Assembly: GCA_030748415.1 (NCBI GenBank)
Contig: JASMMA010000003.1
Location: forward strand, 145,988 to 209,987
Direction: 5' to 3'
Source: Planctomycetota bacterium
GTDB lineage: Bacteria; Planctomycetota; UBA1135
Length of the DNA: 64,000 nt
The stretch's first letter is position 1. Each line of letters opens with the position of its first letter. The notes under the pieces are model-generated. The model was not told the origin of the DNA. It saw only the letters and a program-made list of their open reading frames with translations, and searched no databases. Below are positions 15,382 through 57,380 of the stretch, piece by piece. A program made the translations under genes and the position numbers.

Positions 15382-15705
15382 TTAGGCGTTATCTTCGACG
15401 AGAGATTTGAAGTCATCAAAAGACATCATCCCCATTTTGCGAGCGGCTTCAGTGCCGTTTTTAAACACAATAAAGGTCGGGATGGACATCACGCCAAGCT
15501 GGCTGGCAACACCAGGGCTTTGGTCAATGTCTAGTTTGACGACCTTGACCTTCTCGCCCATTTCTTCGGCGAGTTTGTCCACAGCAGGGCCCATTGCTTT
15601 GCAGGGACCGCACCATGGGGCCCAAAAATCTACGAGGACAGGTTTTTCAGAATCCAAAACTTCAGTTTGGAAATCGGCTTCGGTTACATCTTGGGCGTTC
15701 GACAT
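15382..15705 (-). CDS. trxA: thioredoxin
   Basis: VLVDFWAPWCGPCKAMGPAVDKLAEE; GVMSIPTFIVFKNG; start at MSNAQDV preferred over ORF-track start 15738. Confidence 0.95.
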   Translation of the reverse strand: MSNAQDVTEADFQTEVLDSEKPVLVDFWAPWCGPCKAMGPAVDKLAEEMGEKVKVVKLDIDQSPGVASQLGVMSIPTFIVFKNGTEAARKMGMMSFDDFKSLVEDNA

Positions 15706-34074: not shown

Positions 34075-35094
34075 ATGGCTCCATTCTACTCCAAGTATTT
34101 GCCCCGAGGAGCAAGAACTCTCAAGAGCCCTCAAGTTATTTGCAACTTCCTGCCGAAAGTTAGTTTGTGGGAACTTCTCCCGCACTTTCACCTCTTATCT
34201 GCGGAGGATAGACCCATCTCTTCTGATCGCTGCCTGGAAACCTACTTACGAGAAATCGACGAAGTCCCTCTTCTGTCTGCTGACGAAGAGGTCTCCCTTG
34301 GAAAACGCGTCCAAAAAGGAGACGACAAGGCCCGAGAACATATGGTTCGGGCAAACCTCCGCCTAGTTGTAAGTGTGGCTAAGCGCTTTGGTGGGCGCGG
34401 GCTTTCGCTTCCCGATCTAATCGCTGAGGGGAACTTAGGTCTTTTCCGTGCTGTGGAAAAGTTTGACCCAGGGGCTGGCTTTCGTTTCTCTACTTATGCA
34501 ACTTGGTGGATTCAGCAAACCATCCGTCGGGGCCTCATTAATCAAACCAAAACTGTTCGCATACCCTCATACATGGTTGAAATTTTAACAAAGTGGCGAA
34601 GAGTTTCTAACCAGCTTGAGGGCGACCTTGGTCATCGACCCGACCCGACCGTGGTTGCAAAAGAGCTCGGGCTTTCCACTTCGAACACAGAAGTTGTCAA
34701 GCAAACGCTTCAACATTCTTCCTTCTCTCCAAACTCCAGCGAAGAGCTACTTCATAACCTGTCCAATCGGCATAGCCGTTCAGAGCAAATGCTGCCCGAT
34801 GAAATCGCCCTGAAAAGAGATGCATTGCAAACCCTTCGCGATATCCTAAACCTGATTGATGAGCGCGAGGCTCGGGTACTTAGAATGCGTTACGGTCTTG
34901 AAGCCGAAAAACCCGCAACGCTAGAGTCCATCTCTAAAGAACTTGGGATTTCTCGAGAGCGCGTTCGCCAAATCGAACGCGACTCGCTCAAAAAACTCCA
35001 CGCCTATGTTGTCGATGGCGTTCCGCCCGAACAAATCTTCCCCGCCGCCCGCAAAAGTAAACCCGGGCAAGGCGACCAAAAACGAAGCGCCTAA
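34075..35094 (+). CDS. RNA polymerase sigma-70 family (RpoD/SigA-like) factor
   Basis: YLREIDEVPLLSADEEVSLGKRVQKGDDKAREHMVRANLRLVVSVAKRF; FSTYATWWIQQTIRR; region 4 ESISKELGISRERVRQIERDSLKKL; exact start uncertain. Confidence 0.93.
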   Translation: MAPFYSKYLPRGARTLKSPQVICNFLPKVSLWELLPHFHLLSAEDRPISSDRCLETYLREIDEVPLLSADEEVSLGKRVQKGDDKAREHMVRANLRLVVSVAKRFGGRGLSLPDLIAEGNLGLFRAVEKFDPGAGFRFSTYATWWIQQTIRRGLINQTKTVRIPSYMVEILTKWRRVSNQLEGDLGHRPDPTVVAKELGLSTSNTEVVKQTLQHSSFSPNSSEELLHNLSNRHSRSEQMLPDEIALKRDALQTLRDILNLIDEREARVLRMRYGLEAEKPATLESISKELGISRERVRQIERDSLKKLHAYVVDGVPPEQIFPAARKSKPGQGDQKRSA

Positions 35095-36295
35095 CATCGC
35101 TGCCGAGCGTTCGGCCTTACTTTCAGAAAACGGTACTTCACTTTATGTGCATGTACCGTTTTGCGATTCAAAATGCCGCTATTGTGATTTCAACTCCTGG
35201 GAGCTTAAGGACTCAACGATATTAGTCACTGTTGTCGATGCATTAATCAAGGAGGCCTACGAACGGGCAAATGGTCTTCAACCACAAACTGTTTTTATAG
35301 GTGGGGGAACTCCTTCCTTATTGCCCCCAGACCTACTTGAAAAACTGTTAAATGGTTTGCATGAAGCAACGGGCTTTCGCGAAAGCTCTTTGGAAACCAC
35401 CCTTGAGGCAAACCCGGAGTCCTTTTGTTATAAAACTGCTCAAGCAGCTCTGGGTGGGGGAGTCACCCGAGCCTCGATTGGTGTTCAGTCTCTTCGTTCG
35501 GAAGTACTCCGCGCATACGACCGTGCCCATACCCCTAATGGAGCTCGGGACTCTTTTCTGTTTGCCCGCAAAGCCGGCTTCCAACGAATCAACCTTGACC
35601 TAATTTATTCCTTCCCGGGCCAAAGCTTACTGGAATGGTTTGAGGATCTCGCTGAAGTTATTTCTTGGAAACCGGAACACCTTTCTTGTTATGAGCTGGC
35701 GTTTGAGCCAGGAACCCCGCTCTCGCAGGCAAAAGAAACCGGAAACTTCCCCGATAAAAATCCTGATGCGGCGCTCCGACTTTTTGATGAAACGCGGACC
35801 CTTTGTGAGTCCTCGGGATACTCCGCCTATGAGGTCTCGAACTTCGCAAAGGCGGGGGAAGAGTGCATTCACAACCTTGCCGGATGGAGAAGCCTGGACT
35901 GTGTTGGAATCGGGGCGGGAGCTGTTTCATGGCAAGCGGGGATTCGGCGCAAAAATCCAGCCAACCCTGATGATTGGCTCGAATCTGTATTGACTTGCAA
36001 TACAACTGCCCAGATTGAGCGACCCAATCCAAAAACTCGACTATTTGATTGTTTTCTAATGGGGCTTCGGTTGTGCGATGAGGGCGTTTCAGTTTCCCGA
36101 GCCCTCCGCCAGACCGGGCTCAATCCGAAGGAAGTTTGGTCCAAAGAGCTCCAGGAGTTCTTCTCCGAAAACCTACTGATTGAAGTTGGAGATTGCATTC
36201 GAACAACCCGGAAGGGGCTTCGGTTATTGGATAGTATTTTGGCTCGCCTATTACCTGAAGAGAGCAGGGGGAGAAGCAGGCCGGAGAAGGTATAG
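35015..36295 (+). CDS. hemW: radical SAM HemW-like (coproporphyrinogen III oxidase-like / heme chaperone)
   Basis: LYVHVPFCDSKCRYCDFNSW; FIGGGTPSLLPPDLLEKLL; RASIGVQSLRSEVL; ORF track starts at 34943, overlapping the sigma-factor gene; true start uncertain. Confidence 0.88.
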   Translation: MAFRPNKSSPPPAKVNPGKATKNEAPNIAAERSALLSENGTSLYVHVPFCDSKCRYCDFNSWELKDSTILVTVVDALIKEAYERANGLQPQTVFIGGGTPSLLPPDLLEKLLNGLHEATGFRESSLETTLEANPESFCYKTAQAALGGGVTRASIGVQSLRSEVLRAYDRAHTPNGARDSFLFARKAGFQRINLDLIYSFPGQSLLEWFEDLAEVISWKPEHLSCYELAFEPGTPLSQAKETGNFPDKNPDAALRLFDETRTLCESSGYSAYEVSNFAKAGEECIHNLAGWRSLDCVGIGAGAVSWQAGIRRKNPANPDDWLESVLTCNTTAQIERPNPKTRLFDCFLMGLRLCDEGVSVSRALRQTGLNPKEVWSKELQEFFSENLLIEVGDCIRTTRKGLRLLDSILARLLPEESRGRSRPEKV

Positions 36296-56328: not shown

Positions 56329-57303
56329 TTATCCGCGAGCTTTTTCGAGCGTTTCCTTTACAACATCCTCGATGTCAGTTCCTTCCGCTTTCTTGGCGAG
56401 GGACTTGAGATCTTTGAGCGCCTTTTTGCGGTCACCCTTTCGAAGAGTGTCGATTGCCTTTAAGCGTTTTTTATCCAAGCCCAAAATAGTCTTATTGACC
56501 TTGTCGCCCTTTATGGCTTTTACAGCGCTCAGCATTTCCTTTTCTAAACCACTGCCCTTAAAGGCAGCAATTTGAATGTCGAAATAATTAAGCGCCTCTT
56601 GTGGACGGAACTTATTAGCAATCATGTTTCCGCGCTCCAGGCGACGGTTTGCCGTAGAGGCAAGGTCAGCCAAGAATTGTTTTGCTTCTAGCGGACTCTT
56701 TTTTGCTGCGCGTTCGGCTTCCACCTTTGCATTTCGTAGCTTGCCGGATTTTGCAGCCTCGACAGCTTTCGAAAGAGCTTCGGAGCGCTTGCCCGGATTC
56801 CATGTAGGGCCTGCGTCGGCGGCTTCGGCGAGCAAATCAGGCAAAAGTTTGACCCATTCATCTCCACCGGGGTGACCTTGCCAAACAATTTCACCGTCGT
56901 AATTCAAAAGGAAGGCGGCGGGAATTCCCCGAACACCAAAACTTCTTCCCGATTGGCTTGAACAGCCAATCGGATAGGCGGGAACCTCAGTGTTCCGGCG
57001 CTCAAGCCCGCCAACCACAATCTTTTCAGATTCATCGGTTAGCGCGAGAAAGGCAAGGCCTTGGGGGGCGTATTCTTTCCACACCTCAACGAGGTGCGGC
57101 ATGCTACTAAGGCAAGGGCCTCACCAAGTTGCCCAAAACTCCAAAAAGACAACTCGGCCACGCAAGTCTTCAAGGCTCGTCCCAGGAGGATTATTCATCC
57201 AGGACTTCGCTTCGATTTCTGGGGCCCAACCCTGGCTCAGTTGAGCCGGAATATCGGCGGTTATAGCGCCAACCATCAGGAGGGGTAGAAGGAACTGTTT
57301 CAT
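56329..57303 (-). CDS. thioredoxin/TlpA-like selenoprotein candidate (Sec at codon 61, UGPC) with helical C-terminal extension
   Basis: MKQFLLPLLMVGAITADIPAQLSQGWAPEIEAKSWMNNPPGTSLEDLRGRVVFLEFWATW-[TGA]-GPCLSSMPHLVEVWKEYAPQGLAFLALTDE...GVRGIPAAFLLNYDGEIVWQGHPGGDEW. TGA at 57123-57121 is in frame between ORF-track entries 57121..57375 and 56329..57102 and replaces the first Cys of CGPC. Confidence 0.85.
57079..57099 (-). promoter_or_regulatory. putative bacterial SECIS element
   Basis: mRNA CCGCACCUC-GUU-GAGGUGUGG: 9-bp stem (one G-U pair) and GUU loop, loop starting 31 nt after the UGA. Confidence 0.75.
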
Positions 57304-57380
57304 GTTGGTTACTATACGGGCCACCCAAAAGTAGGGGCAGCGTTGCAGAATGCAACGATTTTGCTCTGAGCACAATAAGC

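Follow-up and report, generated by a model that had tools for sequence, protein, structure and literature searches.

The window, a stretch of 64,000 nucleotides from a Planctomycetota bacterium, carries on its minus strand a predicted selenoprotein gene (56329..57303; 324 codons plus TAA) coding for a TlpA/Redoxin-like domain and a helical C-terminal domain. Standard ORF calling splits this gene at an internal UGA. As described in the initial annotation, the two minus-strand ORFs given in the ORF listing (57121..57375 and 56329..57102) share one frame, and the only interruption between 57303 and 56329 is a TGA at 57123-57121, after which the frame goes on with GGC CCT TGC CTT AGT AGC ATG. Read-through from the ATG at 57303 yields a protein of 324 amino acids in which the UGA is codon 61 (57121..57123, minus strand), within FLEFWATW-U-GPC. 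Both the read-through and the alignments make it the putative selenocysteine (Sec, U) of WATWUGPC, located, as had been claimed, at the first catalytic Cys of the thioredoxin CGPC motif. The resolving cysteine of UGPC is encoded by codon 64 (57112..57114, minus strand), and the invariant columns among 26 relatives are 61 (with U and C pooled), Cys64 and Pro128.

The encoded protein combines a thioredoxin domain of the Redoxin/TlpA type with a TPR-like helical C-terminal domain. Its first 21 or so residues (MKQFLLPLLMVGAITADIPAQ; 57241..57303, minus strand) are probably a signal peptide, recognized by inspection of the sequence and covering an N terminus of low confidence in the model. The thioredoxin-fold (TlpA/ResA/Redoxin-like) domain follows at about residues 25-164 (56812..57231, minus strand), delimited by profiles and by the model: the read-through protein matches Redoxin (PF08534) with 41.3 bits (cut-off 26.6) and AhpC-TSA (PF00578) with 39.1 bits (cut-off 26), and its AlphaFold2 model (pLDDT of 91.6) has a thioredoxin fold nearest to ResA, DsbE, and DipZ. 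The invariant Pro128 (56920..56922, minus strand) corresponds to the cis-Pro position of this fold, in agreement with the earlier assignment of the cis-Pro to GVRGIPAAFLL. The rest of the protein, about residues 165-324 (56332..56811, minus strand), is predicted as an all-helical, TPR-like domain, modeled from residue 148 onward as nine helices with a pLDDT of 94.7, so that the C-terminal extension of ca. 170 residues first described as helical is also helical, and confidently so, in the predicted structure. This domain gave no significant match in PDB or Pfam; its structural matches are mostly TPR proteins, all with E values above 0.4, and weak matches to TPR profiles are scattered along it. 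For the ordinary thioredoxin of the window, the profile search gave only a weak hit, located at about 15550-15645.

In a six-frame scan of the window, we counted 1,814 TGA codons, 197 of which are preceded by 20 or more open codons and followed by 40 or more. Just two of these 197 look coding on both sides, namely the one described here and another located immediately ahead of an ordinary ORF and preceded by 21 open codons only; hence, the UGA-interrupted reading frame is not a product of chance. TGA also terminates 7 of the 32 long ORFs in the window, and these ordinary ORFs rule out a global reassignment of UGA.

The orthologue from the same genus (Planctomycetes bacterium UBA7888; L046/L017) is 82% identical and keeps the TGA at codon 61 (the UBA7888 orthologue and the copy L017 of genome G001 are very probably one and the same assembly). 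When the site was aligned in the host genome and 100 related genomes, U was present in 30 of 36 alignable sites and C in 4 (L031, L040, L044, and L015), while the redox motif had been lost in 2. Among the first 100 matches listed in the related genomes, a hand count gave TGA in 77 and TAA or TAG in 5. The search was also carried out in 149 Planctomycetota genomes, with full-length matches defined as those covering at least 290 of the 324 profile positions. Here, exactly one TGA was counted by hand in 43 of the best 50 full-length matches, with no stop in 7 and TAA or TAG in none, and the matches inspected at the site had U in 19 of 20 cases and C in one (L195); a single locus is common to this 20-site set and the 36-site set of the related genomes. 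Cys versions of the protein, which the initial annotation proposed to look for, are thus found at the same site. A contig scan with peptide patterns containing the active-site Cys codon favors Cys relatives and was left out of the Sec and Cys counts. A DNA-level search of 101 genomes gave 307 occurrences of W-UGA-G-P-C, versus 37 of the reversed pattern, and W-U-G-P-C is present in 89 of the 149 genomes of the phylum.

Comparison of the window gene with L017 gave dN/dS values of ca. 0.02 to 0.08 across both sides of the UGA. Residues 23-60 have a dN of 0.023 and a dS of 1.13, residues 62-164 have 0.112 and 1.44, and residues 165-324 have 0.134 and 1.91 (dN/dS of ca. 0.07 for the C-terminal domain). 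These values indicate that the protein is under purifying selection upstream as well as downstream of the UGA and, together with the Redoxin and AhpC-TSA matches above the cut-off, bear out the earlier view that the translation is protein-like before and after this codon.

A pseudogene cut by a nonsense mutation would account for the two fragments that a standard ORF caller yields. However, the close relatives are not truncated at this point: the orthologue from the same genus has this TGA too, as do relatives throughout the phylum, TAA and TAG hardly occur among the homologues, and the 3' side has a dN/dS of ca. 0.07 to 0.08. The conservation of the UGA and the purifying selection downstream refute loss of the gene, which we regard as extremely improbable. 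The host genome is a draft assembly (2.46 Mb in 68 contigs, 90.6% complete), and a sequencing or assembly error hiding a true TGC or TGT could be suspected on these grounds, but independent assemblies of other species, including UBA7888, have TGA at the homologous codon, which argues against an error, and a second copy in the host genome likewise has TGA; the probability of this explanation is negligible. A long ORF does open at the ATG at 57102, and its 257-residue product might be the functional one, with the upstream part acting as a leader. Yet such a protein would have neither the signal peptide nor the catalytic motif, and its fold would be short of the first strands, whereas the upstream part matches the Redoxin profile and its residues 23-60 are under purifying selection, so that a functional downstream product is hardly credible.

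Decoding of UGA as Sec would involve SelB and a dedicated tRNA, and a profile search of the host genome found SelA (465.7 bits), SelB (282 bits), and SelD (299.5 bits, with one in-frame TGA) on contig C11. The same contig codes for a tRNA-Sec (71 bits, over the cut-off) with the anticodon UCA according to ARAGORN. All four components, whose absence had been put forward as one observation that would speak against a selenoprotein, are therefore present. The TGA of the SelD gene (L170, C11:138568-139491) falls within YAACSGUAAKL, and hence SelD is itself a selenoprotein (CSGUAAK). The selD gene lies about 110 bases ahead of the tRNA-Sec gene (C11:139604), and selA and selB are separated by ca. 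36 kb.

A SECIS element was also sought in the region of the UGA. We found a putative bacterial SECIS hairpin, CCGCACCTC-GUU-GAGGUGUGG (57079..57099, minus strand), on the basis of its folding energy and its position in homologues. It has 9 bp, starts 21 nt past the UGA, and has an apical loop that opens with G. The UGA plus 60 nt has a folding energy of -23.3 kcal/mol, giving z values of -4.0 against dinucleotide shuffles and -2.8 against synonymous-codon shuffles, which lends the hairpin thermodynamic support. Its position is kept in 15 UGA homologues from the same family, two of which have G-C in place of C-G at one pair. Covariation is weak, since the protein sequence PHLVEVW constrains the codons. 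With synonymous shuffles, the mean z was -0.92 over 60 TGA sites (a set in which some pattern sites lie outside recognizable genes and a few loci were entered twice), with a signal that varies between relatives, and -0.07 at four Cys sites, a sample too small for a firm comparison. More distant Sec homologues form other hairpins, and the element is therefore not one conserved structure; Rfam contained no family matching the hairpin.

Opal-suppressor tRNA-Cys molecules have been described in some bacteria, and one of them could read the UGA as cysteine instead of Sec. The presence of a complete Sec pathway in which SelD itself has Sec argues against this, as do the restriction of the UGA to the catalytic position and the SECIS-like hairpin after it; we consider decoding as cysteine highly unlikely. 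The conserved UGA, the full Sec machinery, the hairpin, and the Cys homologues support the bacterial selenoprotein proposed in the initial annotation. Judging from these sequence data, UGA61 is almost certainly decoded as Sec and the gene is intact.

The gene is flanked by purH and a gene for a PD-(D/E)XK nuclease, which, among the loci compared, are kept within the genus only. No functional partner is conserved among the neighbors at these loci, and we have therefore derived the biological role from the fold. SelB and the Sec-tRNA(UCA) would decode UGA61 as Sec, aided by the hairpin 21 nt downstream. The protein would be an exported thiol-disulfide (selenol) oxidoreductase of the TlpA/ResA-like kind, active outside the cytoplasm. 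Sec61 would be the residue that attacks a disulfide of the substrate and Cys64 the one that resolves the mixed selenenyl-sulfide, with recycling of the oxidoreductase by a membrane reductant. The structural model makes such a role as an exported disulfide reductase likely. The TPR-like C-terminal domain might position a partner or the substrate, although this is a guess, and its function as a scaffold or docking surface is proposed only tentatively.

Four further TlpA-like genes with an in-frame TGA were found by profile search in the host genome (contigs C67, C65, C9, and C6). The one on C9 (L014, about 34638-36273) appears to code for an exported protein of two domains. Both of these have a redox motif with an in-frame UGA: the N-terminal Thioredoxin_7 domain reads PWUSWC, and the TlpA domain reads FWUGPC. 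On C11 (L015, around 74262), what seems to be the same architecture occurs in a Cys/Cys protein (DWCGWC ... TWCGPC). On C6 (L016, C6:27469, minus strand), ca. 240 N-terminal residues are fused to a TlpA-like domain with the UGA in FWFYHUGGC, and the gene on C65 (L012, C65:84578, plus strand) codes for a long TlpA-like relative that has diverged to 29% identity with the window protein and has its UGA in WGTRUGGC. Multiple copies are also found elsewhere. The locus L027 (G015:C7:2672-4173) is a tandem pair in which a copy without the redox motif (DTEDLGL) is immediately followed by a UGA copy (WASWUGTC), and other genomes of the phylum have tandem copies as well (e.g., G122:C50, G230:C4, and G161:C180). 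In one family (f30; G122, G146, G166, G183, G200, G215, and G230), there are 5 to 10 strong matches per genome, mostly with one in-frame TGA, in what looks like a paralogous expansion of Sec proteins.

It is an evenly balanced question whether exported proteins with a long TlpA and TPR-like architecture are found throughout the Planctomycetota with Sec as the usual, perhaps ancestral, form and several Sec copies per genome. The data suggest that Sec may prevail in an exported thioredoxin-fold family across the whole phylum. If so, the largely uncultured Planctomycetota would be a selenoprotein-using lineage missed by published surveys and by standard annotation. Selenoprotein-rich bacteria have been reported mostly from Deltaproteobacteria, Clostridia, and Synergistetes (PMC9312934), and for planctomycetes there seems to be a single report of selenoproteins, from two algal-associated strains (PMC4807772). 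The 2022 and 2026 reviews consulted do not mention Planctomycetes, and a search of the literature for the UGPC motif gave nothing relevant. In the open-access literature, we found no report of a family that extends across the planctomycete phylum and usually contains Sec, or of a two-Sec fusion protein such as that of the host genome, and as far as we looked, both are unreported.

The kind of protein is already known, since UxxC selenoproteins of the Redoxin and TlpA-like types have been catalogued (PMC13188914, PMC2398784). The Redoxin-family selenoprotein (PF08534, UxxC), "Prx-like 3" of the GOS survey (PMC2398784; also in Table 1 of PMC13188914), has in common with the window protein a PF08534 match over the cut-off and the UxxC arrangement; the catalogued fusion of this family was set beside it by description only. 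NF041054 (ResA-like, WAxxUGC), the nearest curated selenoprotein model of NCBIfam, also describes a ResA-like domain in which Sec stands in WAxxU, but the window protein scores 38.4 bits against its cut-off of 300, and the motif is UGPC here and UGC in the model. ORF calling cuts the window gene at the UGA and NF041054 misses it, so that members of the family have probably been annotated, wrongly, as fragments in many genomes of planctomycetes. The ResA/DsbE/TlpA oxidoreductases (PDB 4nmu, 1st9, and 3gl3) share the fold and the position of the active site; however, they have Cys where the window protein has Sec and do not have the helical C-terminal domain. With the ResA subfamily model NF002854, the window protein reached 64.1 bits, below the cut-off of 170. 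The thiol-disulfide isomerase-like or TlpA-like selenoprotein (cd02966, UxxC; PMC13188914, Table 1) resembles it in its TlpA/ResA-like fold and in the location of Sec, which occupies the first catalytic position. Unlike that entry, the window protein adds a TPR-like C-terminal domain of ca. 160 residues and has relatives that are widespread in one phylum.
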